Position numbers and translations under genes: made by a program. Shown one piece after another: positions 6,416 to 27,630 of a stretch of DNA of 64,000 nt. Position 1 is the stretch's first letter, and each line of letters starts with the position of its first letter. A model generated the notes under the pieces. That model saw only the letters and a list, made by a program, of their open reading frames with translations. It was not told where the DNA came from and made no database searches. Source of the stretch: Paraburkholderia ginsengiterrae (lineage in GTDB: Bacteria > Pseudomonadota > Gammaproteobacteria > Burkholderiales > Burkholderiaceae); assembly GCF_001645125.1 (NCBI RefSeq), contig NZ_LXKA01000382.1, positions 164,266 to 228,265 of the forward strand, given 5' to 3'.

Positions 6416-6625
6416 TTAGGTTTTGCGCTGCATGGCCGCCTTGACAATGGTCTGATGAGCCGCGGGGAACCCGGGCGGGTATTCCACCACGCGTGCCGAA
6501 GCCGGCACCAGTGGCGCGGCGACATTAAGGCGCGCGCCGATGCGCGCACCGCCGACTATGGCCGCCATCGCTTGACGGTCCAGTTCGACGCTGTCCGTGA
6601 GGTCCTTGATGATGAGCTTGGCCAT
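6416..6625 (-). CDS. double-glycine leader peptide A (69 aa)
   Basis: Small secreted-peptide precursor. Residues 1-25 match the leader shared by five genes of this island (MAKLIIKDLTDSVELDRQAM, then AAIVGG), ending at a Gly-Gly where a C39 peptidase would cut. The tail, about 44 residues, starts ARIGARLNVAAP and is Ala/Pro-rich with a basic C-terminus, unlike the Asn-rich tails of its paralogues. The start at 6625 is fixed by GGAG upstream and by the leader match. It is last in the minus-strand series C (7206-7484), B (6833-7117), A, probably transcribed together from the sigma-54 site at 7560-7574, though 207 bases separate it from B. The C39 transporter at 20842-23898 is the expected exporter. 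Confidence 0.75.
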   Translation of the reverse strand: MAKLIIKDLTDSVELDRQAMAAIVGGARIGARLNVAAPLVPASARVVEYPPGFPAAHQTIVKAAMQRKT

Positions 6626-6756
6626 GGAGGCTCCTACAAAGAAATCGAGCGGCCGGCCGGGGTGATGCTCCGGTCGCCGCTCGGGTGTGTCGTGAAGTGT
6701 GCAGAGGTCTCGTCGCACTATCAGTATAGGAAACAGGCTTGCCGCTTGCCGGCTGA

Positions 6757-6792
6757 TTGCGACGCGGCTTGCGACCCGGCTTGCGACGCGGC
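6757..6792. repeat. three tandem 12-base units
   Basis: Units TTGCGACGCGGC, TTGCGACCCGGC and TTGCGACGCGGC stand head to tail between peptide genes A and B, with one substitution in the middle copy. A short CTTGCCG doublet precedes them. The stretch is not in a convincing coding frame. It may vary in copy number by slippage, altering spacing between the two peptide genes. Confidence 0.7.
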
Positions 6793-6832
6793 GGCAGTAG
6801 GGAAGTCCCCCGGCCCTTGCTACCGCCGGCCG

Positions 6833-7117
6833 TCACACGAAGGCGTTATTGGAGCCCCACAGCGCCGGGCTGACGTTCAGATTGGGCGGAATGAAATTCG
6901 CGCCGATCACGCCGATGTTATTGAGTGCGGCCACGTTCACGTTTTGCGTCTGGATGAGGTTCTGGTTCACGGAGACGTTGATGTTGGCGAGGGTGCCGAG
7001 ACCGGCCAGGGAAGGCAGGCCGGGCACGCTGCCGCCGGTGCCGCCGGCCACCGCCGACATGGCGCGGCGGTCGAGCTCGCGAGTGCTGGACAGATCGCGA
7101 ATCATGAGGGATGACAT
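6833..7117 (-). CDS. double-glycine leader peptide B (94 aa)
   Basis: Precursor of a secreted peptide. The leader (MSSLMIRDLSSTRELDRRAM, then SAVAGG) ends at Gly-Gly near residue 26. The mature part, about 68 residues, opens with a Gly/Pro-rich stretch and then alternates Asn and Val (NINVSVNQNL, QTQNVNVAAL), a pattern expected to form beta strands and reminiscent of secreted beta-solenoid or amyloid-like repeats. It has no cysteine. The start at 7117 has GGAG seven bases upstream. It lies 88 bases after peptide C and 207 before peptide A on the same strand. Export through the C39 ABC transporter of the island is inferred from the leader type. Confidence 0.8.
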   Translation of the reverse strand: MSSLMIRDLSSTRELDRRAMSAVAGGTGGSVPGLPSLAGLGTLANINVSVNQNLIQTQNVNVAALNNIGVIGANFIPPNLNVSPALWGSNNAFV

Positions 7118-7205
7118 GGTGATTCTCCAAAAGTGCGCGGAAGACGGGCGTGCTCAGCGGGAGGCGAAGCGGGCCGGCGAGCCGGACGCTTCGCCTGGGG
7201 GTGCC

Positions 7206-7484
7206 TTACACCTTGATGTTGTTGCTCGTGTTGACGCAGGGGTTGATCGTCGAGGTAATGCAATTGGCGAGCGCGACGTTGTTGCCGTTGGCGTTTTCGA
7301 TGTTCACTCCGCCGGTGATGAACTGGGAGGCGGTAACCGTCTTGCTTTCGTTCGGCGCGTAGACCGGGCTGAAGTTGAAGTACGACGTCGGGTAGCCGTA
7401 GCTGTAGCCGCCGCGCACGGCGCTCATGGCGCGGCCGTCGAGTTCTTCGGTGATGGACAGGTCTTTGATCATCAGCGTGTTCAT
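7206..7484 (-). CDS. double-glycine leader peptide C (92 aa)
   Basis: Precursor of a secreted peptide. The leader MNTLMIKDLSITEELDGRAM, then SAVRGG, is identical to that of peptide D (13800-14093) at both protein and DNA level. The tail begins with Tyr/Gly-rich YSYGYPTSYFNF and continues with an Asn/Thr/Ser-rich segment that holds two cysteines 8 residues apart (NCITSTINPC), possibly a disulfide. The start at 7484 follows AGGAG by seven bases. A sigma-54 type promoter lies at 7560-7574, giving a leader RNA of roughly 60-65 bases. It is first of the C-B-A series and divergent from the Ser/Thr kinase at 7816. Confidence 0.85.
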   Translation of the reverse strand: MNTLMIKDLSITEELDGRAMSAVRGGYSYGYPTSYFNFSPVYAPNESKTVTASQFITGGVNIENANGNNVALANCITSTINPCVNTSNNIKV

Positions 7485-7574
7485 GGCAAATCTCCTGGAA
7501 GGAATGGTCGCAGTCTTGCGGTGGGTTTCGAGCAACTTGTCTGCTCGTACGTCACTAACGCATGGGCCGTGCCA
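7395..7574 (-). repeat. 180-bp inverted duplicate (copy 1): promoter plus leader of peptide C
   Basis: This segment matches 13710-13889 in opposite orientation, with three mismatches that I count, all in the first 40 bases from the promoter. It spans the -24/-12 element, the whole untranslated leader, the ribosome binding site and the first 30 codons. Two such copies 6.2 kb apart in inverted orientation could recombine and flip the segment between them. Confidence 0.9.
7560..7574 (-). promoter_or_regulatory. sigma-54 type promoter of peptide C
   Basis: On the minus strand the sequence TGGCACGGCCCATGC has GG at -24 and GC at -12 separated by ten bases, against consensus TGGCAC-N5-TTGC. It lies about 76 bases before the start codon of peptide C. 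The same element stands before peptide D, and the island encodes its own sigma-54 activator (23901-25253). Confidence 0.75.
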
Positions 7575-7815
7575 GTCTTATTCAAGGTTCCTAAGAAAAT
7601 TGCAGATGGCTTGATGCACAAGGCTTTCATGCGGGCCACCAAGGTTGCGCACGGTCTGCCGCCGCGCATCACAGGTACTCGGCTGACGGCGCACACCCGA
7701 CAGACCCTGGCGGGCTGTTGGCTCACGCACGACACCCGCGTGCTACGCGGGCAGCGGGGCAATCCTGGTTTGCGAAAGGGCGGGCCGGGGACTAGTATCG
7801 AAACGGCACATGTAA

Positions 7816-10056
7816 ATGGCTACGACAGGTTTTCTATCGGCCCGAGAGGTTGCGGTCGCGTGCGATCCGGCCCAACGGCAGCGGCGGCGCTTCGCACAAA
7901 TGGCTAGCCTTGCGCGTGTGATTCACGACTTTCAGAACGGCGAGCTGTCCCGTGACGAGTTCGTGGCTCAACTCGACAGCACGTTGACGACGGAAGGACT
8001 CGCTCCTACCCAGCTGCTGGAGATGCTCGGCGCTGCGCATCGCAAAACACCGCTACCCGACGATCTCTACGTGGAAGTGCGGCGGCGCATCGAACAGTTG
8101 CGCGTCTCGAACGTGGCGGCGGGGGGCGACGAAACCGGTCTTCAGACCACGGTCGAAATTCCATCGGTTCGCTCGGCCAGTACGGGCAGCGCGGGTAGTG
8201 CGGCCAACGCGCCAGGCACCGCCGACGCGGCCGGACACGATCAGATCAAAGGCACCGGCGACACGCTGAACAACCGCTTCGTTCTCGAAGAGTGTCTCGG
8301 CGTGGGCGGCATGGGAACGGTGTACAAGGCGCTCGATCTGCGCAAGCTCGAGGCTTCGGACCGCAAGCCGTATCTCGCGATCAAGGTGCTCAACCTCCAG
8401 TTCCGCGGCAATCCGAATTCGCTCGTCGCGTTGCAGCGCGAGGCGCGCAAGGCGCAGGTGCTTGCGCACCGCAACATCATCACGGTCTACGACTTCGACC
8501 GCGACGGGCCCATCGTCTATCTGACGATGGAGTACCTGTCCGGCAAGCCGCTCAGCCAGTTGCTGCGCACGCCCGGCTACCAGGGCATGCCGGTGCGCGC
8601 CGCGTTGCCGATTGTGCGCGGCATGTGCAGCGCGCTTGCCTACGCACACGAACGCGGCTTTGTTCACTGCGATTTCAAGCCCGCCAATGTATTTCTCACG
8701 ACGAATGCCGAAGTGAAGGTGATCGACTTCGGCATCGCACGCGTGTTCCAGCGGCCGGAAGAAGAGAGCGACGCCACCGTGTTCGACCCCGGCAGCCTCG
8801 GCGCGCTGACGCCGGCGTATGCCAGCCCGGAAATGATCGAGCATCGCGAGCCGGACCCGCGCGACGACATCTACGCGCTTGGTTGCATCACCTACGAGCT
8901 GTTGACCGGCCATCATCCGTTCGACCGCCTGTCGGCGACGCAGGCACGTAATGCCGATTTCAAGCCGCAACGGCCGGCCAATCTCGATGCGAGGCAGTGG
9001 CGCGCGTTGCGTGCCGCGCTGTCGTTCGATCGCAATACGCGCATGCCGAGCGTGACGCGCTTCATCGCCGAGTTCGACAACGAGGCGCGTGCGGAGAAGT
9101 CGGGCACGCTGGCGAAGGTGGGGCTTGCGAGTCTCGCCATGGTGTGCGCGGCGGCGGTCGGTGTGTTCGCGCTGCGCTCCGCGCCGAACCGGCAGGGCGG
9201 TTCGCAGACCAATGCGGGCGCTTCGCAGGCTTCGGCGGAGCAGGCGGCTTCGTCTTCCGCGGTGGAGGGACCGGTCTCGGCGCCGGCGCCTCTTGCGGCG
9301 CTTCCGGCGGGCCCTGCTACGGCACCACCCGCGCCACCTGCTTCGCCTGCATCGCCAGTGGTACCGGCACCCAAGCCGGCGCTGACGCTGGCCGCGGTGA
9401 CCCCGGTGTTGGCGCAAGTGCCCTGTTCGGCGCTGTCCGCTTCGACCCAGGATCACTCGCTGACGGTGCGTGGCTACGTTTCGCAGCGCTACGGCGCGGC
9501 GCATCTTAAAGACACGCTGGGCACGTTGCCGGGTGTCGATACGCTGGCGCTCAACGTGGAGCCGGTCGCCGACGACAAGTGCGACACCATCAAGGCACTA
9601 GCGCCGTACTGGATTCACAACTGGCAGGCGGGCCACGTTGCGGCTTTACACGTTCGGCCGCCCGGTGGGCAGCTGAGCGATGGCGACCCGCTGGTCGTCG
9701 ACGTCACCACGCCGGGATACGATTCTTATGTAAACCTCGACTACTATCAGCTCGACGGCAGCGTCGTGCACATGGTGCCGAGCCCGCGCGCGAAAGATAA
9801 TCAGGCGCCGCCGCACTACGCGGCCACCATTGGCAGCGCGGGCGACTGGGTCATTTCGAAGCCATTCGGATCGGAGATGGTCGTGCTGCTGATCACGCCG
9901 GCGCCGCTATTCGACAAACCGCGGCCCGAAAGCGAATCGCGCGCCGATTATCTACGTGCGCTCGACGCGCGGCTTACGCAAATGGGTGGCAAATACGGCC
10001 GCGATCGTATCGTTGCCGATTTCGCGCCGATCACGACGAAGCCACGCACGCCTTGA
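7816..10056 (+). CDS. membrane Ser/Thr protein kinase with DUF4384-like C-terminal domain
   Basis: Eukaryotic-type Ser/Thr kinase of 746 residues that phosphorylates proteins and probably senses an extracytoplasmic cue. A 150-residue N-terminal region precedes the kinase domain (about 153-425), which has the glycine loop GVGGMGTVY (162-170), catalytic Lys190 and the catalytic loop HCDFKPANV (284-292, HCD in place of HRD). It also has DFG at 304-306 and the P+1 region TPAYASPEM. One membrane helix lies at about 432-453, followed by an Ala/Pro/Ser linker and a periplasmic end resembling DUF4384 (YYQLDGSVVHMVPSP, WVISKPFGSEMVVLL). The start is uncertain; Met29 is an alternative. Natural partners are the twin-FHA protein at 16055 and the PP2C phosphatase at 25282. 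It is divergent from peptide C and converges with the caspase/FGE gene. Confidence 0.9.
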   Translation: MATTGFLSAREVAVACDPAQRQRRRFAQMASLARVIHDFQNGELSRDEFVAQLDSTLTTEGLAPTQLLEMLGAAHRKTPLPDDLYVEVRRRIEQLRVSNVAAGGDETGLQTTVEIPSVRSASTGSAGSAANAPGTADAAGHDQIKGTGDTLNNRFVLEECLGVGGMGTVYKALDLRKLEASDRKPYLAIKVLNLQFRGNPNSLVALQREARKAQVLAHRNIITVYDFDRDGPIVYLTMEYLSGKPLSQLLRTPGYQGMPVRAALPIVRGMCSALAYAHERGFVHCDFKPANVFLTTNAEVKVIDFGIARVFQRPEEESDATVFDPGSLGALTPAYASPEMIEHREPDPRDDIYALGCITYELLTGHHPFDRLSATQARNADFKPQRPANLDARQWRALRAALSFDRNTRMPSVTRFIAEFDNEARAEKSGTLAKVGLASLAMVCAAAVGVFALRSAPNRQGGSQTNAGASQASAEQAASSSAVEGPVSAPAPLAALPAGPATAPPAPPASPASPVVPAPKPALTLAAVTPVLAQVPCSALSASTQDHSLTVRGYVSQRYGAAHLKDTLGTLPGVDTLALNVEPVADDKCDTIKALAPYWIHNWQAGHVAALHVRPPGGQLSDGDPLVVDVTTPGYDSYVNLDYYQLDGSVVHMVPSPRAKDNQAPPHYAATIGSAGDWVISKPFGSEMVVLLITPAPLFDKPRPESESRADYLRALDARLTQMGGKYGRDRIVADFAPITTKPRTP

Positions 10057-10132: not shown

Positions 10133-12154
10133 TCACCTGAGATCCTTGACGACCCGCACGCCATCCTGCGATTGACGCACGCCGGCGCTGTACTTGAAGC
10201 GTGTGGCGCTCAGCATGTAGCCGCCGCCTTCGCGCCACGAACCGCCGCGAATCACGCGCATGTCGCAGCCGGGGCTGTCCCACGCGTGGCCGTCGGTGGG
10301 CGCGCCCTGGTAGGAGTTGTGCCAGCAGTCGGCGGTCCATTCCCAGACGCCGCCGTTCATGTCGTACAAGCCGAGCGGATTCGGTGCGAACGAGCCGGCG
10401 ACTTCGGGTCCTTCCTTGTGCCACGGATCGCCGCAGTCCTTGCAATTGGCGTTGCCTTTGCGCATCTGGTCGCCCCACCAGTAGGCGGTGGTCGTGCCGC
10501 CGCGACCCGCGTATTCCCACTCCGCCTCCGTCGGCAGGCGGTACGGCTTGCCCGTGGTCTTGCTCAGCCATTTCACGTACTGCTGCGCATCGTCCCAACT
10601 GAGATCGCGTGCCGGGGCGGCCTTGTTGGTGTTGCTCTCGGGTGTCAGCTTCTGACAAGCGTTGGCGGCCACGCACGCATTCCATTGATCGACGGTGACA
10701 GCGTATTTGCCGATGGCGAATGGCGCGCCGATGCTCACGTGATGAACGGGCTTCTCTGACGGATCGTCGGTGCTGCTGCCCATTGAAAACGAGCCGGCGG
10801 ACACGGCGATCATGATCGGGCAAGTGGCACAGTCACGGCTCTCGCCGGCTACCGGTGGGTGCGTGATGGGTTTTTGCGCGACAGCTGTGATGGCCGCGGC
10901 GGGCGGAGCGGCGGGCCCGGGGGCAGGTGGGGCCGCGCTCACAGCGGGTTTGGGCGTGGTGACCGGATGCTCCTGCGCAGCGGGACTGGCCGACGCGGCA
11001 GGTGTGGATGGTCGCACGGCCGCCTGCGCGGGCGCGGCTGAAGGTGCGGCGGGTGTCGCCGCGGACGGCGCAGTCGAGCTTGCCGCCGCGCGCAAGCGGT
11101 CGATGCGCGCATGAGCGAGCGCGGCGAAGCGGCCATTCGGATAGGCCTTCAGATACGCCTCGTAATCGGCGGGGTAGTTGCTGTCCTTGATCGAATTCCA
11201 GAAAGCGATTTCGTATTGTTCGCTGCTGTCTTTCGGCAGAATGCCCCGGCTGTGCAGCGTGACCACGGAGTCGTTCTGAAGCGCAATCGCCGCATTCGAA
11301 TCGGGCGACGGCGAGTGGAGCGACGAAGCCGCCCACGGCATTTGCCTGCCGTCAGTCACCTCGCGAACCTGTAGCGCGACGCGTTGCAGCAGGGCAGCGA
11401 GCGTCTGCGACGGAGTCGTGTCGAGCGCATGCAGCCATGCATTCGTGTAGATGCCGTGGCGCATGCCGTCCGCGGCAAAACCGCCAGGCGCTGTTGCGTA
11501 GGCAATCACGGTATTGCCTGGAAGCGCAGACGTATCGATCGACGCATCAGGCGAGAACGGATTGTTCAGACACGTATCGAGGATCACCAGATTGAGCTGA
11601 CCGTCACGCGCCGCGCGCATCGCCTGCAATACCGTATTCAGGTCGACGCCCTCGCGCACGAGCGTTGCGGGTGAGCGCGAGTCGAGTCCGGCTGGAATGA
11701 GCAGCGTCTGCTGGCCGATCCGCATGCCGTGTCCCGCGAAATAAAACAGACCGGTACCGCCGGCTTGCAAGCGCTGATGAAATTCGCGGATGGCTTCCCG
11801 CATTTGCCCGGGCGTAGCATCGGTGCGTGCAATCACGTCGAAGCCGAGCGTGCGCAGCCGGTCACGCATGGCTTCGGCGTCGCGCGGCGCATTCCCACGG
11901 AGCGCATTGGCCTGCACGTCAGCGCGATTCGCACCGTACGCGCCGTTGCCGATCACAAGCGCGATGCGTGGGGAAGGCCCGGGATTGCGCTGTGGGGCGA
12001 ACGGCGTGAGCAGCGAACTCCTGGGGTTCGCCGCTGCCGTGCTGGCCATGCCAAGGCCAGCGTCAGCGCCGCTGCGTTGCGCCGCGGCATGGACATCGCC
12101 GCCATGTGCCTGAATTGCCCCGGCCACGCACACCAGCATGAATATTCGCCACAT
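10133..12154 (-). CDS. exported caspase-like protease fused to an FGE/SUMF1-type domain
   Basis: Protein of 673 residues with an N-terminal signal peptide ([19 protein letters not shown]). A caspase/metacaspase p20 fold follows at about 60-300, with the catalytic dyad His142 in FYFAGHGMR and Cys195 in [10 protein letters not shown]. After a TPR-like stretch (about 313-351) and an Ala/Pro linker comes a formylglycine-generating-enzyme-like domain (about 440-673) with [26 protein letters not shown] and RGGSW. Such FGE-fold domains often bind rather than modify. The start at 12154 is chosen for the signal peptide and AGGA upstream; a reading from 12307 is longer but unsupported. It lies inside the peptide-secretion island between the kinase and the DUF4399 pair, so a role in peptide maturation or signalling outside the cytoplasm is possible but unproven. 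Confidence 0.85.
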
Positions 12155-12521
12155 CTTCACATCCTGTTTGTTCCGGACAGAACATAGGCATTCGAGCATC
12201 GCGATACGCCCGGCAACAGCCCGAGCCAATCGTGTGAAGCATCGATGCCGCCATCGATCATCCATCCGCGACCTATTAACAACGATAGCACGCGTGGTGC
12301 GCGCCACAAACGTTAGCGTGTCCTGAATGCTCCATACGGTTAACGACCGTGGCGTATCTTTTTGGCAAGTTACGTCCTAAGCTAATTCACAAAGTCAGGC
12401 GGCCCGGTCGTTTTAACTACGCGGCCGTTCGATTGCACGTGTGCCAGCGACATCCAGCCGCAACGCCCGGCCTGTCCCGTGCAGCCGAGGTGGCCACGAC
12501 CGCTCTTCGGGAGAGTGCGCT
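12155..12521. other. divergent intergenic region
   Basis: 367 bases between the caspase/FGE gene and the DUF4399 pair. It is comparatively AT-rich around 12270-12420 and should hold both divergent promoters. I see no sigma-54 element with correct spacing (a near match on the minus strand around 12230 is one base too long) and no small gene. Confidence 0.5.
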
Positions 12522-13037
12522 ATGCGAAGAAATCCCACCCCCGTTGTTCCCAATCTGCCTCATCGAGCAACCGCGGGAGCGCCCGCGCGGCGCGCCGTGC
12601 TGCGCTCGGTGTGGCGCACCGTGGTCGTTGCGGCCATCGGCAGCGTGATGCCGTTGCGCTTCGCGCTGGCCGAGCAAACGCCGTCGCCGCCGGGCGCCGA
12701 GGAGTACATCATCTGGCCAGCCGATGGCGCTGTGATTCATGGCGGCAAGCTGTGGGTCCGCATGGGCCTGCGCAACATGGGTGTGTGCCCGAAAGGCATC
12801 GCGCATCCGAACACCGGGCACCACCATCTGCTGATCGACACCGACCTGCCGGCGCTCGATCAGGAGATCCCATCGGATCGTAATCACCTGCACTTCGGCG
12901 CCGGTGAGACGGATGCGCGTATCGAGTTGCCGCCGGGCAAGCACACGTTGCAGCTCATTCTCGGCGACCACAATCATGTGCCGCACGTGCCGCCGGTGTA
13001 TTCGAAGAAGATCACCATCACGGTGCTGAAAGACTAG
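12522..13037 (+). CDS. DUF4399 family exported protein (first copy)
   Basis: Exported protein of 171 residues. An Arg-rich N-terminus and hydrophobic helix (TVVVAAIGSVMPLRFALA) form a signal peptide, followed by a DUF4399 domain. Its landmarks are HHHLLIDTDLP, DQEIPSDRNHLHFGAGET and the PPGKHTLQLILGDHNHVPH segment. The clustered histidines could bind a metal, which is my inference. The start at 12522 has GGGAGAG six bases upstream. It is followed 47 bases later by a second copy that is nearly identical through the histidine core, so the pair arose by tandem duplication. Function of the family is unknown; the place in the island suggests an envelope role linked to peptide export. Confidence 0.85.
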   Translation: MRRNPTPVVPNLPHRATAGAPARRAVLRSVWRTVVVAAIGSVMPLRFALAEQTPSPPGAEEYIIWPADGAVIHGGKLWVRMGLRNMGVCPKGIAHPNTGHHHLLIDTDLPALDQEIPSDRNHLHFGAGETDARIELPPGKHTLQLILGDHNHVPHVPPVYSKKITITVLKD

Positions 13038-13084: not shown

Positions 13085-13519
13085 ATGTACAAGATCATCG
13101 CAGTCGCGGCGCTCGTTACGTGGGCGGCGTTGGCGTCGCCGGTTGCCGCCGTGGCGGGTACCACGCCGGCGCCGGCCCGCGCCCTTGCCTATATCGGCTA
13201 TCCGAACGACGGCCAGGTCGTGCCCGCCAATAAACCGTTTCGCGTGTGGTTCGGCCTGCGCTACATGGGCGTGGCGCCGAAGGGTGTCAAGTATCCGAAT
13301 ACCGGCCACCACCATCTGCTGATCGACACCGATCTGCCGCCGATGGATCAGGAAATTCCGTCGGACCGCAATCATCTGCACTTCGGCGCGGGCGAAACGG
13401 AAACCATGATTCAGCTGCCGCCGGGCAAGCATACGTTGCAGTTGCTGATGGGCGACGATATGCACATGCCGCACAATCCGCCCGTGTACTCGAAGAAGAT
13501 CACCGTCATTGCGCGATGA
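13085..13519 (+). CDS. DUF4399 family exported protein (second copy)
   Basis: Tandem paralogue of 12522-13037, 144 residues, with a clear cleavable signal peptide (MYKIIAVAALVTWAALASPVAA) and the same DUF4399 core: NTGHHHLLIDTDLPPMDQEI, RNHLHFGAGE and PPGKHTLQLLMGDDMHMPH. GGAGAG precedes the ATG. It lacks the longer Arg-rich N-terminus of its neighbour and has methionines where the first copy has other residues near the histidines. The two are probably co-transcribed and exported to the periplasm. Downstream, 190 bases away, is the sigma-54 promoter of peptide D. Confidence 0.85.
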   Translation: MYKIIAVAALVTWAALASPVAAVAGTTPAPARALAYIGYPNDGQVVPANKPFRVWFGLRYMGVAPKGVKYPNTGHHHLLIDTDLPPMDQEIPSDRNHLHFGAGETETMIQLPPGKHTLQLLMGDDMHMPHNPPVYSKKITVIAR

Positions 13520-13709
13520 CCGGTGCGCGGCACGACCCGTGAAGTCCCGGTGTCGCGCCGCGTCCAACCATTTCGCGCGAATTGTTGGCCGTGATCCACC
13601 ATCCTCATTCCGCCTTTGTGCCGGCCGGACTTTCTCCCGGCGTTGGCCCATCCCCGCAGCCCTTTATCCACGGCGCTTTTGGCAATTTCTTAGGATCGGA
13701 AAACAAAAC

Positions 13710-13724
13710 TGGCACAGCCCATGC
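13710..13724 (+). promoter_or_regulatory. sigma-54 type promoter of peptide D
   Basis: TGGCACAGCCCATGC: GG and GC elements ten bases apart, 76 bases before the ATG of peptide D. It differs from the peptide C promoter by one base within the element. The 280-base gene-free stretch 13520-13799 shows no other feature. Confidence 0.75.
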
Positions 13725-13889
13725 ATTAGTGACGTACGAGCAGACGAGTTGCTCGAAACCCACCGCAAGACTGCGACCATTCCTTCCAGGAGATTTGCCA
13801 TGAACACGCTGATGATCAAAGACCTGTCCATCACCGAAGAACTCGACGGCCGCGCCATGAGCGCCGTGCGCGGCGGCTACAGCTACGGC
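13710..13889 (+). repeat. 180-bp inverted duplicate (copy 2): promoter plus leader of peptide D
   Basis: Counterpart of 7395-7574 in opposite orientation. From about 13750 to 13889 the two copies are identical, covering the ribosome binding site and 30 codons. Upstream of the -24 element the short stretch CTTAGGA is also shared although flanking bases differ. Confidence 0.9.
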
Positions 13890-20016: not shown

Positions 20017-20769
20017 ATGAGCGCGATTGTGCGAATCGATGACGAAGTCGTGGACGTGGCCGAGTTCATTCGTCTTCTGAAATTGACCGGCCAGTTCGAG
20101 AGCCTGATCGAGCAGATCGTGCGCGACAAGCTCACGGTGCACGCGGCGAAGAAGCAGGGCATTACCGTTAGCGCCGACGACATACAGGAGCGCGCCGACC
20201 AGTTTCGCCGCGTGCGCGGCCTGCATCGCGCGACGGATATGAACCAGTATCTCGACGCGCTTCATGTCAGTCTCGACGAATTCGAGGCCTTCATCACCGA
20301 CGGGCTGTATCAGGAGAAGATGCTCGACGAGATCGGCAACGACGCGGCGATCAAGGACTACTTCGCGCTGAATTCACCGAAGTTCGATGCGATCGAGGTA
20401 AGCCACATCGTGCTGGACAGCGAGGGCAAGGCGAAGGAAATGATCTCGTACCTGCACGACGATCCCGATAGCTTCGCCGACATGGCGCGCGAGCATTCGA
20501 TTGCGGATACGCGCGAGGCGGGCGGCGTGATCGGCAAGGTGCTGCGCGGTTCGCTGAAGCCGGACATCGAAGCGAAGATTTTCAATGCGGCGGTGGGCGA
20601 CCTGCTGGGGCCGTTTCCGTCGGCGGACCGCTCGTGTTTCGAGATCTTCGCCGTGACGGCCAAATATCCGGCCACGCTCGATGCGGATGTGGCTGCCGAG
20701 ATCAGACGGCTGCTGCGCGAGAGCTGGCTGATCGCGCGCGCTCAGGAACACGTGATCGAAGCGCGCTAG
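20017..20769 (+). CDS. parvulin-type peptidyl-prolyl isomerase without signal peptide
   Basis: PpiC/SurA-like isomerase of 250 residues. An N-terminal helical chaperone-like half (about 1-115) is followed by a rotamase domain with the parvulin hallmarks VSHIVLDSEGKAKEM, DPDSFADMAREHSI, GGVIGKVLRG and VGDLLGPF. There is no signal peptide or membrane helix, so unlike SurA or PpiC-exported forms it should stay in the cytoplasm. It lies between the adaptor and the C39 transporter in the exporter operon (37-base gap before, 72 after), so it plausibly keeps Pro-containing peptide precursors export-competent or delivers them to the transporter. AAAGGAG precedes the ATG. Confidence 0.85.
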   Translation: MSAIVRIDDEVVDVAEFIRLLKLTGQFESLIEQIVRDKLTVHAAKKQGITVSADDIQERADQFRRVRGLHRATDMNQYLDALHVSLDEFEAFITDGLYQEKMLDEIGNDAAIKDYFALNSPKFDAIEVSHIVLDSEGKAKEMISYLHDDPDSFADMAREHSIADTREAGGVIGKVLRGSLKPDIEAKIFNAAVGDLLGPFPSADRSCFEIFAVTAKYPATLDADVAAEIRRLLRESWLIARAQEHVIEAR

Positions 20770-20841: not shown

Positions 20842-23800
20842 ATGGACGCCCCCCAAACCGCGCCTTCCGCAGCCGAGTTTCTAGCCTCGGTGGAAATTCT
20901 GTCGCCGTTCTCGCGCGATGAGATCGAGCGTCTCGCGGAAGATGCGCAAGCGCGTTTCTACTCGTTCGGAGAAACGGTCTGCTCGGCGGGCGAAACGGCG
21001 GACGGCCTCTACGTGATTCGCTCGGGTTCCGTGCGTATCTTCAGGGAGGAGCACGGGAAGGAAACCAGCATGGGCGTGCGCAAAGCGGGCGAGATATTCG
21101 CCGACATCGCCATGTTGCGCACGTATGTTCACGAAGCGTCGGTGCGGGCGTCGGCGAAAACCGAGCTGCTGTTCATTCCGCGCACCACGATCGAACCGGT
21201 GATAACCGGCAATCAGGCCGCGTTGGCGTTTGTCGCCAGCTATGTCGCGATCAATTCGGCGGGCGGTTTCGTCGCGCAACTGTTCGATCTGCGCGGCAAA
21301 CTGAACAAGGCGGAACTCGAAGAGTATGTGCGCAGCGTCGGCGTAAAACGCGTGGCGGCGGGCAAGGAAATTCTCAAACAGGACGGACGCGAAGACCGGC
21401 GGCTGTACGTGGTGCGCCAGGGCGCAGTGCGTATCGTGCGGCACGAGGAGGGCCACGACTATACGCTCGCCACGCTCGGTGAAGGCGAGATATTCGGCGA
21501 GAAAGCCTGCCTGATGCGCCAGGAGCAGATGGCGTCGGCCGTGGCGGCGACCGACACGCGGCTGCTGGTGATTCCGGAGCGAACGGTCCACTTCATTCTG
21601 GAGCGCAATCCCAAGCTGCGTGAAGTGCTCGACGAGCGGATTCGTTACGGCGACCGCGAGTTGCAGCGGCAAAAGCGGCTCGAACAGCGGCGCAAATTGC
21701 CGCTGATGCTCGACTTGCAGAGCCAACCGGGGTTGGGCGAGAAAGTCATCAAACGCTTCGCGCTGGTCGAACAGGCGGAGGAGATGGATTGCGGCGCGGC
21801 GTGCCTCGCGATGGTGTGCCGCCACTACGGCATTCCGATGACGCTCGGCAAATTGCGCGAACTCGCCAATGTGACGACCCAGGGCGCGACGCTCGACAGC
21901 CTCGCCCGTGCGGGCGAATCGCTCGGATTCACGGCGCGCGGCGTGCAATGCACGTTCGATTCCTTGCGCGGCTTCGATCTGCCGTTCATCGTGCATTGGG
22001 AGGGTTACCACTACGTGGTGGTGTACGGACTCTCCAAAGACTATGTGTGGGTCGCGGACCCGGCCGTCGGTTTCAAGAAAATGACCGTCGAGGATTTCGA
22101 GCGCGGCTGGAGCGGCACGTGCCTGTTGTTCACGGGCGGCCCGCATCTGCTGCAAATGTCCGCGGCCCGTTCGCCGTGGATACGCTTTGTCGGCTACCTC
22201 AAGCCGTACAAAAAGATACTCGGCTACCTGTGTCTCGCCACTTTCGTGATTCAGGTGTTGGGCGTGATTCCGCCGCTGATTATCCAGAACATACTCGACG
22301 GCGTGATCGTGCATCAGAACGTCAGCCTGCTGCACTTGCTGATAGGCGGCCTGATTATCGCCAATGTCTTTTCGCAACTGATGTCGTCGATACGCGCGTA
22401 TCTGGCGAATTTCATGGTGCGGAACATGGACTTTGCGATGATGTCGCAGTTTTTTAAGCACACCATGTCGCTGCCGTTTTCGTTCTTCGCCAAGCGCAAG
22501 ACCGGCGATATTTTCGCGCGCTTCCAGGAAAACCAGACGATCCGCGCGTTCCTCACCGAATCCACGGTCACTACCGCGCTGAATCTGCTGATGGTGTTCA
22601 TCTACTTCACGATCATGTTCGTCTACAACGTGAAGATGACACTGGTGCTGATCGCGTTCGTCATTCCGATCATGGCGCTCACTGCGCTCGCCACGCCGAA
22701 GATAAAAAGCTATGCGCGCGAGGTGTTCGCGGCGTCGACCGAATCGAAGTCGTTTCTGATGGAGGCGCTCGCCGGCGTGGAGACCGTCAAGGGCATGGGC
22801 ATCGAGCGGCCGGTGCGTCTGCGCTGGGAGAAGAAGTACGCGAAAGCACTCGAAGTGCAATATCGCGCGCACGCGTTCAACATTCTCGTAGGCTTGGGCA
22901 GTCAGTTGCTGAACGCCGCCACCACGATCGCCATTCTCTGGGTCGGCGCGACGCTCGTACTAGCGCGTGAAATGACGATTGGCCAGCTGATCGCGTTCAA
23001 CGCGTTCATGGGGAGCGTATTGGGTCCGCTGATGGGACTGGTCGGTTTGTGGAGCATGGTGAACGATGCGGGCGTGGCAATGGAGCGCCTCGGCGACGTG
23101 CTCGACATCGAACCCGAGCAGAAGCCGCAGGATTTGCCCTCGCGTGTGATGCTGCCCGAACTGCAAGGGGAAATCAGCCTCAGTGGCGTCTATTTCCGTT
23201 ACGGTGAAAGCGACTCGGCCTACGTGCTCGAAAACATCAGTTTCGACATCAAGCCCGGCGAGCTTGTGGCGATTGTCGGGCGCAGCGGGTCGGGCAAAAC
23301 GACGCTCGCCAAGTTGCTGGTGGGCTTTTATACGCCGACCGAAGGCAAGATGACCATCGACGGCTACGATCTCGGCGTGGTCGATAAAGCCTATTACCGC
23401 GCCCAGATCGGCTACGTGATGCAGAGCAACCTGCTGTTCTCCGGCACGATCGCGGAGAACATCGCGAGCGGCGACGATGCGCCCGAGCGCCGCCGCATCG
23501 AGGAAGTCGCGAAGATGGCCGACGCGCACGCTTTCATCAGCAAGATGCCGCTCGGCTACGAACAGATTGTCGGCGAGCGGGGTATCGGGCTGTCGGGCGG
23601 GCAGATCCAGCGGCTGTGCATTGCGCGCGCGCTGTATCACGATCCGCGCCTGCTTGTCTTCGACGAAGCGACCTCGGCGCTGGATTCCCAGTCGGAAAGC
23701 AATATCCTCGGCAATATGCACGACATTCTGAAGGGCCGCACCGCGGTGATCATCGCGCACCGGCTCAGCACAATCATGCGCGCGGACAAGATTCTCGTGT

Positions 23801-23898
23801 TGTATGAAGGGGCGATCGTCGAACAGGGCCGCCACGATGAATTGATCCAGCGCGGCGGCATGTATTACCAACTGGTTCAAAAACAGTTGAGTGCGTGA
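20842..23898 (+). CDS. C39 peptidase-containing ABC exporter with two cyclic-nucleotide-binding-like domains
   Basis: Inner-membrane exporter of 1018 residues that cleaves Gly-Gly leaders and pumps the mature peptide out. Two cNMP-binding-like (CAP fold) domains lie at about 15-130 and 145-265. A C39 peptidase follows at about 305-435, with oxyanion Gln311, Cys317 in EEMDCGAACLAM, His390 in GYHYVVVYG and Asp406 in VADPAVG. Then come six membrane helices (about 450-740) and the ATPase, with Walker A GRSGSGKTT (813-821), LSGGQIQRL from 917, Walker B LLVFDEATSALD from 937 and switch His973. Ordinary C39 exporters are about 700 residues; the extra 300 are the CAP-fold pair, so ligand-gated export is inferred. 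Five matching substrates are encoded in the island. Its stop overlaps the sigma-54 activator region. Confidence 0.95.
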   Translation: MDAPQTAPSAAEFLASVEILSPFSRDEIERLAEDAQARFYSFGETVCSAGETADGLYVIRSGSVRIFREEHGKETSMGVRKAGEIFADIAMLRTYVHEASVRASAKTELLFIPRTTIEPVITGNQAALAFVASYVAINSAGGFVAQLFDLRGKLNKAELEEYVRSVGVKRVAAGKEILKQDGREDRRLYVVRQGAVRIVRHEEGHDYTLATLGEGEIFGEKACLMRQEQMASAVAATDTRLLVIPERTVHFILERNPKLREVLDERIRYGDRELQRQKRLEQRRKLPLMLDLQSQPGLGEKVIKRFALVEQAEEMDCGAACLAMVCRHYGIPMTLGKLRELANVTTQGATLDSLARAGESLGFTARGVQCTFDSLRGFDLPFIVHWEGYHYVVVYGLSKDYVWVADPAVGFKKMTVEDFERGWSGTCLLFTGGPHLLQMSAARSPWIRFVGYLKPYKKILGYLCLATFVIQVLGVIPPLIIQNILDGVIVHQNVSLLHLLIGGLIIANVFSQLMSSIRAYLANFMVRNMDFAMMSQFFKHTMSLPFSFFAKRKTGDIFARFQENQTIRAFLTESTVTTALNLLMVFIYFTIMFVYNVKMTLVLIAFVIPIMALTALATPKIKSYAREVFAASTESKSFLMEALAGVETVKGMGIERPVRLRWEKKYAKALEVQYRAHAFNILVGLGSQLLNAATTIAILWVGATLVLAREMTIGQLIAFNAFMGSVLGPLMGLVGLWSMVNDAGVAMERLGDVLDIEPEQKPQDLPSRVMLPELQGEISLSGVYFRYGESDSAYVLENISFDIKPGELVAIVGRSGSGKTTLAKLLVGFYTPTEGKMTIDGYDLGVVDKAYYRAQIGYVMQSNLLFSGTIAENIASGDDAPERRRIEEVAKMADAHAFISKMPLGYEQIVGERGIGLSGGQIQRLCIARALYHDPRLLVFDEATSALDSQSESNILGNMHDILKGRTAVIIAHRLSTIMRADKILVLYEGAIVEQGRHDELIQRGGMYYQLVQKQLSA

Positions 23899-23900
23899 TC

Positions 23901-25253
23901 ATGAAGATACTCGACCAGATTGAAGAGGCCAGCCCCGCGATTTCCTACGCGGGCCTGATCGAGCGGATCGAGATTCTGCGCTCGACGCTGCGCTGGTCGT
24001 CGCGGCTGGAGCGCGCGGATATCGACAAGTTGCTCCGGCAGGCCACTTCGTTACGCGACGAGGTGATGCAGCTATCGCACAAGGAGCGCTTCGTGCAGGC
24101 AGCCGTGGCCGCGGAACCGCAAGAGCGCGTGGAGCAATCGCGCGGCGCGCGCAGAAAGGCGCTGCTCGAGCGCAGTTTCATTTTCGAGGGGACGTTCGGC
24201 GACAATCCGCGCCTGCTCGAGTCGCTCGAAATCGCCGAAAAGGCGGCACCGACCGATTTGCCGGTGCTGATCGACGGTGAAAGCGGCACCGGCAAGGAGT
24301 TGATGGCGAAAGTGATTCACGCCAACGGCTCGCGCTCGGACAAACCGTTCATTTCCGTGAACTGCGGCGCGATTCCGGACAACCTGCTGGAGTCGGAATT
24401 GTTCGGGCATCGCAAAGGGGCGTTTACGGGGGCGTCGAACGATCGCAAGGGCAAATTCGAAAGCGCGCACACAGGAACCATCTTTCTCGACGAAATCGGC
24501 GAGTTGCCGCTCGCCGGCCAGGTGAAGCTGCTGCGCGTGCTGGAAGCGCATGAGATTCAGCGCGTGGGCTCCGATGAAACGATCGCGGTGGATACGCGTA
24601 TCGTTGCGGCCACCAATCGCAATCTGCGAAAATTCAGCGAAGAGGGGAGGTTCCGCGAGGACCTGTTTTACCGGCTTAGCGTGATTCACGTCACGCTGCC
24701 GCCGTTACGCGAGCGTCGTGATGAAATACCGCTGCTGATCGCATGGTTTGGCGACGAAGCGGCCGGCACGCTCAAGCGCAGACCCGTGCGGATGACACCG
24801 CGTCTGCGCGATTTTCTGCTGAACTACGCGTATCCCGGCAATATCCGCGAGTTGCGCAACGTGATGTATCGCCTCTCGTGTCTGGCCGGCGAGATGGCCG
24901 ATGTCGATCATCTGCCGCTCGACATGCGGCCGGCCGCGCCCGGTTCCGCGGCTTTGGCGAATGCCGCGAGCGCGACAGGCGTGGAGCCGATCAGCGTGGC
25001 GAATCTGATGTCGCTGAGCGATGCCAAGCGCGCCGCGAGCGACGACGCAGAGAAGGCGTTCCTCGAACGCGGCCTTCGCGAAGTGAGTGGCACGGTCGCG
25101 GAACTGGCGCGCCGTATCGACATGAACCGCTCGCATCTGCAAATGCTGCTGAAGAAGCACGGGTTGCATTCGAAGGACTTTCGCAACCGTGCTACGCCGT
25201 CCGCGACGAGCAACGGCGCCGACGACCGCGATGAAGACGACGGCGACGCGTAA
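23901..25253 (+). CDS. sigma-54-dependent transcriptional activator without receiver domain
   Basis: Enhancer-binding protein of 450 residues that opens sigma-54 promoters. A non-standard, mostly helical N-terminal region of about 95 residues (no REC, GAF or PAS pattern, no FHA) precedes a complete AAA+ domain. The AAA+ domain has Walker A GESGTGKE (126-133), the sigma-54 contact loop GAFTGA (173-178), Walker [11 protein letters not shown] and the arginine-finger region [10 protein letters not shown] Fis-type helix-turn-helix lies near the C-terminus ([20 protein letters not shown]), then a polar Asp-rich tail. It overlaps or abuts the ABC gene: the ATG at 23901 follows the ABC stop by two bases, and a GTG at 23895 overlapping it is equally possible. 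The sigma-54 type sites before the peptide and LRAT-like genes are its natural targets. Confidence 0.92.
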
Positions 25254-25281
25254 GGCCGCGGCAGTCTAATGGTCGACCGGC

Positions 25282-26061
25282 TCAGGGCGCCGGATTCAGC
25301 AGGGTTTTGTCTGACGCATACGGATCCTCCGCACGCACCACGACTGCGGTGATGTTGTCGCGGCCGCCGTGCGTGAGCGCCAACTCGACCAGTTCTTCAG
25401 ATGCGTTCTCGCGAGCCGCCTGGGTCAGCACCGTCAGCATTTCCGCTTCGCTGACTTCGTTGCTCAGGCCGTCGCTGCACAGCAGGAAGATGTCGCCGTC
25501 CGCGACTTCGATGGCGTCGTCGTCGAGTTCGAGCACGTCGGTTGCGCCCACGGCGCGCGTGATCATGTGTTGCGCGGGGTGATGCCGCGCCTCTTCCTCT
25601 GTAAGGACGCCGAGCGACTTGAGTGCTTCCACCTGACTGTGATCGCGCGTGAGTTGCCGCAGGCGTCCTTCGCGCAGCAGGTACAGGCGGCTGTCGCCCG
25701 CCCATACATAGCCGCAGAAGCGGTCGCAGGCGAGCAGCACGACGACCGTGCTGCCGATCCGCTGCACCTGGCGGCGTGCCGCCTCGTTCCTGAGCTGACG
25801 GTTGGCGGACTGCAAGCGGGCGTGCGCGTCGGCGATAAAGGCTTTCATGCTGGCCGGCGGCGCGAGACGGCCGAGTTCTTCGATCACCAGACGGCTCGCC
25901 AGATCGCCGACCGCATGCCCGCCCATGCCATCGGCGACGGCCCAGCGTCCGAGTCCGGACTGGTCGAGGCAGGCATCTTCGTTGATTTCGCGGACGCTTC
26001 CGGCGTCGGTGCGCGCGGACGACGTCCAGCGAAATTGGCTCGCACAGTTCACGACATTCAC
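25282..26061 (-). CDS. PP2C-family Ser/Thr protein phosphatase
   Basis: Soluble metal-dependent phosphatase of 259 residues that removes phosphate from Ser/Thr, the natural counter to the kinase at 7816-10056. The PP2C landmarks are in order: VREINEDACLD (metal Asp), VADGMGGHAVGD (metal Asp/Gly), YVWAGDSRLYLLR, LTRDHS, LLCSDGLSNEV and GGRDNITAVVVR. There is no membrane helix. The GTG start at 26061 overlaps the stop of peptide gene E, so the phosphatase is translationally coupled to a secreted-peptide precursor and should share its sigma-54 promoter. It converges with the sigma-54 activator gene, leaving 28 bases between the stops. Coupling the off-switch to the product suggests feedback, which is inference. 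Confidence 0.93.
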   Translation of the reverse strand: MNVVNCASQFRWTSSARTDAGSVREINEDACLDQSGLGRWAVADGMGGHAVGDLASRLVIEELGRLAPPASMKAFIADAHARLQSANRQLRNEAARRQVQRIGSTVVVLLACDRFCGYVWAGDSRLYLLREGRLRQLTRDHSQVEALKSLGVLTEEEARHHPAQHMITRAVGATDVLELDDDAIEVADGDIFLLCSDGLSNEVSEAEMLTVLTQAARENASEELVELALTHGGRDNITAVVVRAEDPYASDKTLLNPAP

Positions 26062-26345
26062 ACCATATCGTTTCGGCTGCGTGCGTCGGGAGAAACGTTG
26101 ATGTTCGAGTTCGAGCCGGTGTTGCGGACATCAACCGACTGGAACGTGTTGATCATCTGGTTAGCATAGAAGTTGTTGGTGACATCGTACAGGTTGACGA
26201 CGGGTCCAATGCTCGGCGTTTGTGGCACGTAGGGCTGAATCCACCCATACACCCACGGGGCGCCGCCGCCGCCGCGGATTGCCGTCATCGCCTTACGGTC
26301 GAGCGCGAGGTTCAGCGAGAGATCGTTCACTGTGATGGATGCCAT
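26058..26345 (-). CDS. double-glycine leader peptide E (95 aa)
   Basis: Most divergent member of the peptide family. The leader MASITVNDLSLNLALDRKAM, then TAIRGG, keeps the hydrophobic positions, L-D-x-x-A-M and Gly-Gly. The mature part, about 69 residues, starts with a Trp/Tyr/Pro-rich stretch (APWVYGWIQPYVPQ) and ends Asn/Ser-rich (NNFYANQMINTFQSV, NTGSNSNINVS) with a charged tail. It has no cysteine. The ATG at 26345 has GGAG six bases upstream and a sigma-54 type site 72-87 bases upstream. Its stop overlaps the start codon of the PP2C phosphatase. Readings from further upstream (26582) lack any support. Confidence 0.8.
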   Translation of the reverse strand: MASITVNDLSLNLALDRKAMTAIRGGGGAPWVYGWIQPYVPQTPSIGPVVNLYDVTNNFYANQMINTFQSVDVRNTGSNSNINVSPDARSRNDMV

Positions 26346-26416
26346 GTCGTTCTCCGGTTGGCCGCGTGTATCACGCACGCGCTGACGCGTGGTGAAAAAG
26401 GATTTGAACGAGATGG

Positions 26417-26432
26417 TGCAAGTGCTATGCCA
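26417..26432 (-). promoter_or_regulatory. sigma-54 type promoter of peptide E and PP2C
   Basis: Minus-strand TGGCATAGCACTTGCA has GG and GC at the required ten-base spacing and a full TTGCA -12 element. It lies 71 bases before the start codon of peptide E. Of the 469-base stretch between peptide E and the LRAT-like gene, the other recognisable sites are the palindrome at 26726 and promoter at 26757. Confidence 0.75.
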
Positions 26433-26725
26433 ATCGGCGGCCTGCTCACGCGTTTTGTCGTAGCCGGTTGATGGCTGGGCGATTGCGGGTGCTTGCGCAT
26501 TCCACGTATTAGTAAACGCGCCTGCATGGGTCGGTTTGCAGCCAACAAGCACGAACCTGAACCGGTGCGCGACCCAACACATTCAAGCAACTCCCTGCCG
26601 TCCTTCTAGTGACCCGCGCGCCTCGCCGGGCGGTCGAAAATGAGCGCCGCACGCCAACACTTCGGCGCGATTTCTGTCGGCTGGCGTCGCACACTTACGC
26701 GATCGAAAATCCCCTGTTTTACCGC

Positions 26726-26748
26726 AAAGCCTTGTAGGTAAAGGCTTT
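26726..26748 (+). promoter_or_regulatory. palindrome upstream of a sigma-54 type promoter
   Basis: AAAGCCTT (26726-26733) and AAGGCTTT (26741-26748) form a perfect inverted repeat with a seven-base spacer, nearly extended on both sides. It ends nine bases before the -24 element at 26757. It could be an activator site or a hairpin; its closeness to the promoter is unusual for an enhancer. Confidence 0.4.
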
Positions 26749-26756
26749 TGCGCGCA

Positions 26757-26771
26757 TGGCCCGGATGATGC
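26757..26771 (+). promoter_or_regulatory. sigma-54 type promoter of the LRAT-like gene
   Basis: TGGCCCGGATGATGC carries GG and GC ten bases apart, 44 bases before the ATG at 26815. It would place the transcript start near 26783, consistent with 26815 rather than 26788 as the start codon. The match is weaker at the A of TGGCAC. Confidence 0.6.
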
Positions 26772-26814
26772 GAAAGACCTCGCAACAGTGTTGGAAATCG
26801 AAACGAGGCCAGCC

Positions 26815-27324
26815 ATGAACACCCACCCACTTCTGACGAGCAGCGAAAGCCGCGAAGACCGCAGCGACGCAGCGTCCACCATCGACCTGCCGATTGGCGC
26901 GCATCTCGTCACGCAACGGCGCGGTTACGAACATCACGGCATTTACGTCGGCAACGGTCGCGTGGTTCATTACGCGGGTTTTGCGAGTTCGGCTCATCGT
27001 GGCCCGGTCGAAGAAGTGGAACTGGAACGTTTTGCCGCCGGCCATCCACTGTCGATTCGCGTGGAACCGTCCGCCCGCTACGTCGGCGAAGAAGCCGTGC
27101 GCCGCGCGCGCTCACGTCTTGGCGAAAACCACTATCGCCTGCTGACGAATAACTGCGAGCACTTCTGCGCATGGTGCCTGCTCGGCAAGAGCCGCAGCGA
27201 ACAGGTGCACTGCTGCCTGCGTCATCCGCGTACCGGCGTGCATGCGCTGGTGTGCCTCGTGAAGGCTTTTGTCGAGAGTAACGCTAAGGGTGCTCACGCA
27301 CACGCTTTCGCGCAGTTGGCGTGA
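26815..27324 (+). CDS. LRAT/NC-domain-like protein
   Basis: Soluble protein of 169 residues resembling the lecithin-retinol-acyltransferase (H-rev107/NC) fold, a permuted NlpC/P60 thiol-acyltransferase or hydrolase. Visible features are GAHLVTQRRGYEHHGIYVGN with the candidate catalytic His, GRVVHYAGF, and NCEHFCAWCLLG with the catalytic-type Cys in the NCEHF box. The C-terminus is Cys/His-rich (VHCCLRHP). The start at 26815 has GAGG upstream and fits the sigma-54 site. It is followed 54 bases later by a small gene of unknown function. In this island it might acylate or hydrolyse an envelope lipid or the peptides; that is inference from position only. Confidence 0.8.
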   Translation: MNTHPLLTSSESREDRSDAASTIDLPIGAHLVTQRRGYEHHGIYVGNGRVVHYAGFASSAHRGPVEEVELERFAAGHPLSIRVEPSARYVGEEAVRRARSRLGENHYRLLTNNCEHFCAWCLLGKSRSEQVHCCLRHPRTGVHALVCLVKAFVESNAKGAHAHAFAQLA

Positions 27325-27378
27325 GCGAACGAGACCGAATTCAATGATTCACAAGCTCGCGGATTCCAGGAGACCATC

Positions 27379-27630
27379 ATGATTGCCGCAGAAAAGACCT
27401 TGCACTGGGCCGTCGACAAGTGGCTCGCCCCGACCCCGTCGATGCCCGCACGCGTCGTGCGGTTTTGCCACCGCGCTTCGCAGCAACGCTATGTCTGCGT
27501 GGAAGCGTTGCGGCCGGGCGGACTGCTGTCGATTTTCTTCTTCCGCCATGACGACGGCTCGTGGAATGTGTTTCCGCAGCAGGCGGAGCGTCCGGCGATG
27601 AATGGACACCGCCGCGCGGCACTCGGTTAG
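27379..27630 (+). CDS. small basic protein of unknown function (83 aa)
   Basis: Short protein starting MIAAEKTLHWAVDKW, with two cysteines and a hydrophobic beta-like stretch (GGLLSIFFFRHDDGSWNVF). There is no signal peptide. GGAG seven bases before the ATG supports translation, and the 54-base gap suggests co-transcription with the LRAT-like gene. Its end overlaps the stop of the minus-strand LysR gene by four bases. Not recognised; it may mark the right border of the secretion island. Confidence 0.6.
   Translation: MIAAEKTLHWAVDKWLAPTPSMPARVVRFCHRASQQRYVCVEALRPGGLLSIFFFRHDDGSWNVFPQQAERPAMNGHRRAALG

Follow-up and report, generated by a model that had tools for sequence, protein, structure and literature searches.

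The region between positions 6416 and 27630 of a 64,000-nucleotide stretch of the Paraburkholderia ginsengiterrae genome (8.5 Mb; the whole stretch is hereafter called the window) carries five genes for small proteins with Gly-Gly leaders, together with type I export genes, a sigma-54 activator and Ser/Thr signalling proteins. All genes named by a first-pass annotation of this DNA are present, and their families could be assigned by profile wherever a profile exists. Three precursor genes on the reverse strand (pepA, pepB and pepC) are followed by a kinase gene on the forward strand, a caspase-FGE fusion on the reverse strand and two forward DUF4399 genes. Next come pepD and the genes for NodT, FHA, HlyD, PpiC, the exporter and the sigma-54 activator, all forward, then PP2C and pepE on the reverse strand, and finally the forward LRAT gene and orf83. 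The nearest named relatives are Paraburkholderia species, with up to 96% identity across the first 440 residues of the exporter.

The exporter (20842..23898, forward) contains N-terminal CAP-like domains (cNMP_binding, 123.4 bits over two stretches), a C39 peptidase domain (Peptidase_C39, 134.1 bits) and the ABC_membrane and ABC_tran domains within one protein, the arrangement of a long-type (CAP_ED-C39) exporter. Its score against the NHLP bacteriocin exporter TIGR03796 is 556.1 bits, below the cut-off of 853.3. The other parts of the type I path described in the first-pass annotation are likewise matched: a NodT-type outer-membrane factor (14318..15826, forward; TIGR01845 outer_NodT, 313.9 bits, cut-off 210) and a HlyD-type adaptor (18591..19979, forward; HlyD_3, 70.6 bits; TIGR01843, 168.5 bits, under its cut-off of 208.65). 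The PpiC-type protein (20017..20769, forward; Rotamase, 40.9 bits) agrees with the leaderless parvulin described there, as no hydrophobic stretch was found in it by a crude hydropathy measure. Its best NCBIfam match is PpiC_rel_mature (TIGR04500), which covers residues 2–247 yet reaches 99.9 bits against a cut-off of 180.

A scan of named genomes, from which the best 80 of 244 loci were kept (71 of the 80 exceed 21 kb), allowed motif conservation to be followed in Paraburkholderia, Caballeronia, strains filed as Burkholderia, Cupriavidus, Aromatoleum, Noviherbaspirillum and metagenome-assembled genomes. The C39 motifs are largely intact (Q..DCG 80/80, DCG..C 78/80, His motif 80/80, Asp pattern 67/80), as is Walker A (80/80). 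As in long-type exporter clusters, HlyD and rotamase genes adjoin the exporter (76/80 and 79/80 loci, respectively) and Gly-Gly precursors are linked to it (77/80). By-eye comparison with the generally known CRP motif places alanine at the position of CRP Arg82 in both CAP domains. They apparently lack the arginine that holds the cyclic-nucleotide phosphate, and thus may sense another ligand or be structural. At E≤0.001 the genome has one other C39 match, a stand-alone protein at another place, within an open reading frame (ORF) of 257 residues, so the exporter of this locus is the one recognisable peptidase exporter of the genome.

The five precursors are pepA (6416..6625, reverse, 69 residues), pepB (6833..7117, reverse, 94 residues), pepC (7206..7484, reverse, 92 residues), pepD (13800..14093, forward, 97 residues) and pepE (26058..26345, reverse, 95 residues). 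The starts of pepC and pepE are most likely ATG 7484 and ATG 26345, each inside a longer mechanically called ORF. No Pfam or NCBIfam family matched any of the five at cut-off. They share a 26-residue leader, with M1, D8, L9, L15, D16, A19, M20, A22, G25 and G26 in common, and the leaders are similar across peptide types. Four orthologous types recur among loci, A (short), B, C/D and E, with orthologues in other genera; other cores carry the same leader in two loci (Bstag and G016). The core of pepE is conserved: the median ratio of nonsynonymous to synonymous substitution rates (dN/dS) is 0.18 over 1831 pairs and 0.21 for the core, compared with 0.09–0.11 for the exporter, HlyD, PpiC and the sigma-54 activator. 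This purifying selection and the orthologues in other genera indicate that the peptides are more than chance ORFs, in agreement with the five Gly-Gly peptides first proposed. For pepD, dN/dS is 0.63 overall, 0.36 in the leader and 0.72 in the core.

The C and E cores are rich in asparagine and glutamine (20% together, vs 6.8% across 15 further proteins encoded in the region), hold one quarter to one half of the charged residues of those 15 proteins and contain 0–0.4% cysteine. Local alignment against shuffled sequences found pepB and pepE (p 0.004) and pepC and pepD (p 0) alike in their cores, and the other eight pairs not alike. When the pepE and pepD alignments are compared as profiles, their match (98.8%) is carried largely by the leader. 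Genes pepC and pepD have promoters and leaders that are inverted copies of each other: the two arms of this 204-nucleotide repeat (7395–7598 and 13686–13889) are 95% alike, the next 182 nucleotides 77%. The repeat encloses the kinase, caspase-FGE and DUF4399 genes, and could permit an inversion of 6 kb or gene conversion.

The sigma-54 activator (23895..25253, forward; Sigma54_activat, 236.5 bits) retains GAFTGA in 79/80 orthologues; profile searches recognised no sensor domain in it. Sigma-54-like promoters precede pepC (TGGCACGGCCCATGCG, 7559..7574, reverse), pepD (TGGCACAGCCCATGCA, 13710..13725, forward) and pepE (TGGCATAGCACTTGCA, 26417..26432, reverse). Candidate promoters were scored with a general −24/−12 consensus (maximum 16.2, threshold 14), taking the best site within 350 bp upstream. 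In a first set of 73 peptides from 22 loci and the window (in which G081 and CabM are one genome), scores of at least 14 were found for 22/25 C/D, 14/14 E, 1/18 A and 0/12 B genes and for 3/4 other cores, against a background of 4.0% of 4000 places. In the named set (149 peptides in 77/80 loci), the counts were 61/77 for pepC/D and 66/68 for pepE (127/145 together), and 0/2 each for A and B, with a background of 3.4% of 5000 random places. No promoter of its own was found for pepB in either set. Gene pepC probably leads a pepC-B-A unit. Median distances from promoter to start are 91 bases (C) and 77 bases (E).

Elsewhere in the named set, promoters at this threshold were found upstream of 52/70 LRAT orthologues and of none of 375 genes for NodT (0/61), HlyD (0/76), PpiC (0/79), the exporter (0/79) and the activator itself (0/80), nor for PP2C (0/73). 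They are rare at caspase-FGE (1/50), DUF4399a (3/51), FHA (2/76) and orf83 (1/69). On both strands of the whole window, 12 sites score at least 14, and the pepC, pepD and pepE promoters are three of them.

Upstream of these promoters lie candidate activator sites. An inverted repeat of TGTYGG half-sites is found 5′ of pepC (7697..7721), with further candidate sites 5′ of pepD (13564..13588) and of the LRAT gene (26654..26680); 5′ of pepE there are two TGTTGG half-sites 32 bp apart (26542..26579, starting at 26542 and 26574), in direct rather than inverted orientation. The motif was chosen by eye and then counted on the same promoters (those scoring at least 14, of which the window contributed three): CC[AG]AC[AGC]-N13-15-[TCG]GT[TC]GG occurs at 50/63 C/D, 42/52 LRAT and 1/67 E promoters (background 1.5%), and at least two half-sites at 64/67 E, 42/63 C and 52/52 LRAT promoters (background 5%). 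The TGTTGG half-sites are likely the site of the activator. The features by which a sigma-54-controlled gene is recognised, a −24/−12 promoter, a GAFTGA activator and upstream sites, are all present here at the sequence level and recur at pepC/D and pepE, and sequence support for the proposed sigma-54 transcription of the peptides is strong. Near the window end, a pair of identical, divergent sigma-54-like sites (TGGCTCGCATACTGCA) lies at 63842–63857 and 63920–63935.

Recurrence of the neighbourhood in related genomes had been set beforehand as a check on the first-pass annotation, and the neighbourhood does recur. The N-terminal 440 residues of the exporter are matched (E≤1e-25) in 56 of 200 sampled family genomes, from 7 of 25 genera. 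The corresponding counts are 11/369 class genomes and 11/398 phylum genomes, each including the genome studied here and one match to the C39 part alone (G235 and G834, respectively), with three family members in the phylum sample. In 20 loci from seven genera, NodT, FHA, HlyD, PpiC, the exporter, the sigma-54 activator, PP2C and pepE are all found in 20/20, LRAT in 16, orf83 in 17 and the kinase, within the fetched stretch, in 15. Among the 71 long named loci, the activator, exporter and PpiC occur in 71, FHA, NodT, HlyD and pepE in 69, DUF4399 and PP2C in 68, caspase-FGE in 67, and LRAT and orf83 in 65. Four named loci, two at full length (L163 and L166) and two short (L171 and L173), do not have the full NodT/FHA/HlyD set in the stretch; L163 has only PpiC, the exporter and the activator. 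G071 (L037) and two named loci carry the PP2C-pepE-LRAT-orf83 block in the opposite of its usual orientation. The locus is a real system.

Leader and exporter travel together. A leader profile of eight rows (A2; four window peptides and four from Noviherbaspirillum and Caballeronia loci) found leaders at E≤1e-4 in 58/200 family genomes: all 56 with the exporter and two of the other 144, G179 and G191 (Fisher's exact p 8e-48, a statistic that ignores kinship). In G179 a pepE-like gene and a further leader lie on two contigs. In G191 (L200), where the exporter was not matched, kinase matches in four pieces adjoin a pepA-like gene, apparently a relic. In the 8.5-Mb genome itself, the profile, partly built from four of the five peptides, found seven places at E≤3e-5, five of them the locus peptides; two further places (E 1.4 and 3.1) were taken as chance. 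Two unlinked precursors lie on other contigs (C311 and C353), each with a sigma-54-like site scoring 14.2 about 80 bp 5′ of its start, and may be unlinked substrates. The region had been called self-contained, which is true in part: the set of precursors extends beyond it.

The Ser/Thr kinase (7816..10056, forward; Pkinase, 139.6 bits) contains a single hydrophobic stretch, and its C-terminal part resembles DUF4384 (25.3 bits, under the family cut-off of 27). The FHA protein (16055..18628, forward; FHA, 96.3 bits) has two FHA stretches and one hydrophobic stretch, and carries two SRRHA motifs in 75/76 orthologues. The PP2C phosphatase (25282..26061, reverse; PP2C_2, 54.1 bits) retains DGMGGH and DNxT/S in 74/74 each. 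The kinase tends to stay with the peptides. Of the five seven-genus loci lacking it in the fetched stretch, G051, G081 and G160 had it in a later fetch, the remaining two being G100 and G071. In three Caballeronia-type exporter loci (genus g10: G100, G081 and G160) no kinase matched within about 26 kb upstream. Leader hits in G051, of another genus, and at other places in g10 genomes were used to pick seven further stretches. In 7/7 the kinase adjoins peptide genes; in G051 these are of pepD/pepB type and neighbour the main locus, and otherwise they are pepC-pepB-pepA. The distance between the exporter and the kinase/pepC-B-A cassette is 103 kb (G132), 114 kb (G160), 122 kb (G108), 140 kb (G081) or about 1 Mb (G116), and in G197 the two are on different contigs, a second respect in which the locus is not self-contained. 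The pepA orthologues in other genera adjoin the kinase where fetched. Because the kinase stays with pepC-B-A where that block sits elsewhere, and FHA and PP2C are conserved, phosphorylation may control the system, as had been proposed; the argument is one of linkage.

The remaining genes also match the families first assigned to them. The caspase-FGE fusion (10133..12307, reverse; FGE, 186.9 bits; Peptidase_C14, 98.7 bits) has the GHG motif in 65/73 and the Cys pattern in 55/73 orthologues. The two DUF4399 proteins (12516..13037 and 13085..13519, both forward) score 128.7 and 125 bits. The LRAT-like protein (26788..27324, forward; LRAT, 86.1 bits; H and NCEHF motifs in 69/70) more likely starts at ATG 26815 than at GTG 26788, and is preceded by a weaker sigma-54-like site (26757..26772, forward; score 13.6, below the counting threshold). 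The conserved 83-residue orf83 (27379..27630, forward), present in 69/80 named loci with dN/dS 0.15, has no Pfam or NCBIfam family match.

These features suggest, with a probability of roughly 0.7, that the locus is a type I export system dedicated to a family of small proteins with Gly-Gly leaders, with a sigma-54 switch, phospho-control and a probable matrix product. The activator would bind TGTTGG-type sites about 100–150 bp 5′ of −24/−12 promoters and turn on pepC-(B-A), pepD, pepE, usually the LRAT gene, and the unlinked precursors, all with promoter-like sequences. The membrane kinase, the FHA protein and PP2C, to judge from linkage, may govern how active the activator or the exporter is. 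The precursors would be kept unfolded, perhaps by the cytosolic PpiC-type protein; the C39 domain would cut after Gly-Gly and the products would exit through ABC-HlyD-NodT. We infer this trimming and export, which the first-pass annotation had also proposed, from the C39, ABC, HlyD and outer-membrane parts, which are intact and occur together with the leader. The predicted products, of about 70 residues, weakly charged, Asn-rich and nearly Cys-free, most likely serve outside the cell as structural or adhesive (matrix) material, the weakest step of the proposal.

Class II microcins and colicin V-type peptides are exported by way of a Gly-Gly leader, a peptidase ABC exporter, a HlyD-type adaptor and a TolC-type channel, and the locus resembles this route in each part. 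It differs from a microcin system in its sigma-54-like promoters and its several Asn-rich products per genome, one of them well conserved; no immunity gene was recognised in it by crude hydropathy. A closer relative is found in cyanobacteria: the available part of PMC3140520 describes bacteriocin clusters (groups I, II and VI) with a long-type CAP_ED/C39/ABC exporter, HlyD, a rotamase (there SurA) and linked precursors, and the same exporter-HlyD-rotamase-precursor core appears in the part of PMC4558948 available. Compared with these clusters, the present locus adds the sigma-54 activator and sigma-54-like promoters, the kinase, the two-FHA protein, PP2C, NodT and LRAT; neither "kinase" nor "sigma" is found as a word in the main text of PMC3140520. 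The earlier statement that no described system joins these families was therefore too strong for the core, while for the full combination a literature search, with most subscription papers outside its reach, found no description. Passages matching the search terms in two P. phymatum papers (PMC5979394, on sigma-54, and PMC5748707) do not mention a locus of this kind, and Azoarcus BH72 (PMC3262810, seen in part) proved a false lead. What is new is that the exporter-HlyD-rotamase-precursor core is paired with a sigma-54 activator encoded in the locus, with sigma-54-like promoters, and with kinase/FHA/PP2C, NodT, LRAT and recurring Asn-rich products.

The shared route, and the name given to the cyanobacterial clusters (in the available part of PMC3140520), could mean that the products are class II microcin-like bacteriocins against competitors. 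The unequal pepD core and leader (dN/dS 0.72 vs 0.36) and the conserved promoter and leader of pepC and pepD beside more divergent cores would fit such a role; bacteriocins likewise evolve fast. We nevertheless regard it as unlikely: the cores are weakly charged rather than cationic, pepE is conserved across genera under purifying selection, and no small membrane (immunity-like) protein was noticed among the conserved genes by crude hydropathy, without a systematic search, orf83 having no hydrophobic stretch. It is improbable that the products are instead signals, sensed by an outer domain of the kinase and fed back through FHA and the activator. The kinase does have a C-terminal part beyond its hydrophobic stretch and adjoins pepC-B-A, and pepD lies upstream of the exporter and activator genes, but a core length of about 70 residues and several distinct cores in one genome would be unusual for a pheromone. 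The locus could also be two neighbouring systems, with peptide export beside an unrelated kinase/caspase-FGE/DUF4399 group. Neither L166 (Noviherbaspirillum) nor L162 (Aromatoleum), over the stretch fetched, gave a match to caspase-FGE, DUF4399 or LRAT, and the promoter is mostly absent from caspase-FGE and from DUF4399a, the one DUF4399 gene counted. This division is quite unlikely given that the kinase adjoins pepC-B-A in Caballeronia-type genomes, LRAT has the same promoter type and upstream site as the peptides, and caspase-FGE and DUF4399 occur in 67–68 of 71 long loci.

Several observations weigh against a sigma-54-controlled export system with a matrix product. When loci are thinned by exporter identity, promoter counts fall, yet remain above background: at 95%, C 15/24, E 16/18 and LRAT 11/17; at 90%, 9/13, 7/9 and 5/7; at 85%, 4/8, 3/5 and 2/3. 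The activator site was selected by eye on the promoters used to count it, the motifs DCG..C (78/80), GAFTGA (79/80) and the C39 Asp pattern (67/80) are missing from some loci, and the pepD core evolves fast. Structure models of pepE and pepD are of low confidence (predicted local distance difference test 45 and 60) and form only the leader helix, with no fibre fold seen. The peptide cores show, at most, a marginal likeness to the Asn-rich proteins beside the stand-alone C39 protein.

That protein (contig C222; L002, 540–3401) is flanked by Asn/Gly/Ser-rich repeat proteins and resembles a Fap-type functional amyloid cluster. The Fap system pairs a C39 protease with Asn-rich exported subunits; its exporter is of a different kind from that of the present locus. 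Amyloid by homology was rejected: in ten comparisons against shuffles, the five cores gave p 0.07–1.0 and 0.038–0.954 with the two Asn-rich ORFs beside the C39 protein, which is not convincing similarity, and no curlin or Fap family in Pfam matched the peptides at cut-off.

If the export system operates as proposed, about one quarter of the sampled family genomes (56/200) would possess a dedicated, regulated outlet for a protein family unnamed in Pfam and NCBIfam. The locus brings together Ser/Thr phospho-signalling, sigma-54 activation and Gly-Gly export, which are mostly treated as separate topics, and promoter and leader combined offer a way to find unlinked substrates. The carriers include many soil and plant bacteria related to Burkholderia, and a direct test is possible in soil strains such as Paraburkholderia xenovorans LB400, where the locus lies on chromosome 2 (L097).

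Outside the family, seven remote loci were fetched, with exporters of about 34–36% identity. Two (G332 and G606) match all of the sigma-54 activator, PpiC, HlyD, exporter and FHA protein. G529 has all but HlyD, G432 all but PpiC (with a PP2C match) and G665 all but the activator, where the contig ends; G300 has exporter and FHA only and G344 exporter and HlyD only. A Skermanella plasmid locus has HlyD and exporter only. The leader was found in two (G395 and G362) of 16 exporter-bearing genomes outside the family (G235 and G834, matched in the C39 part only, were left out); 13 of the other 14 had no match at E≤0.1, and in G606 a single weak match to part of it was seen (11 residues, E 0.026). 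The cargo of the remote module was not found by looser scans covering 10 loci. A more far-reaching possibility, which we offer tentatively, is that in Burkholderiaceae a Ser/Thr-phosphorylation-gated, sigma-54-driven regulon uses one type I exporter for small Asn-rich proteins encoded across the genome, which as a family build an extracellular matrix or adhesive fibre not known before, and that its core (sigma-54 activator, PpiC, HlyD, CAP-C39 exporter, FHA protein and TolC-like channels) is an old module spread across the phylum with other cargo. A row of large proteins lies behind FHA in the remote loci, and 5/5 tested, all from G529 and G665, proved to be outer-membrane efflux (OEP) proteins. 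L088 (1–5883) and L090 (330–6161), as well as L085, L086 and L091, have about three large proteins in succession; those of L088 are TolC-like OEP proteins without exception, and three of these in one locus is unusual.

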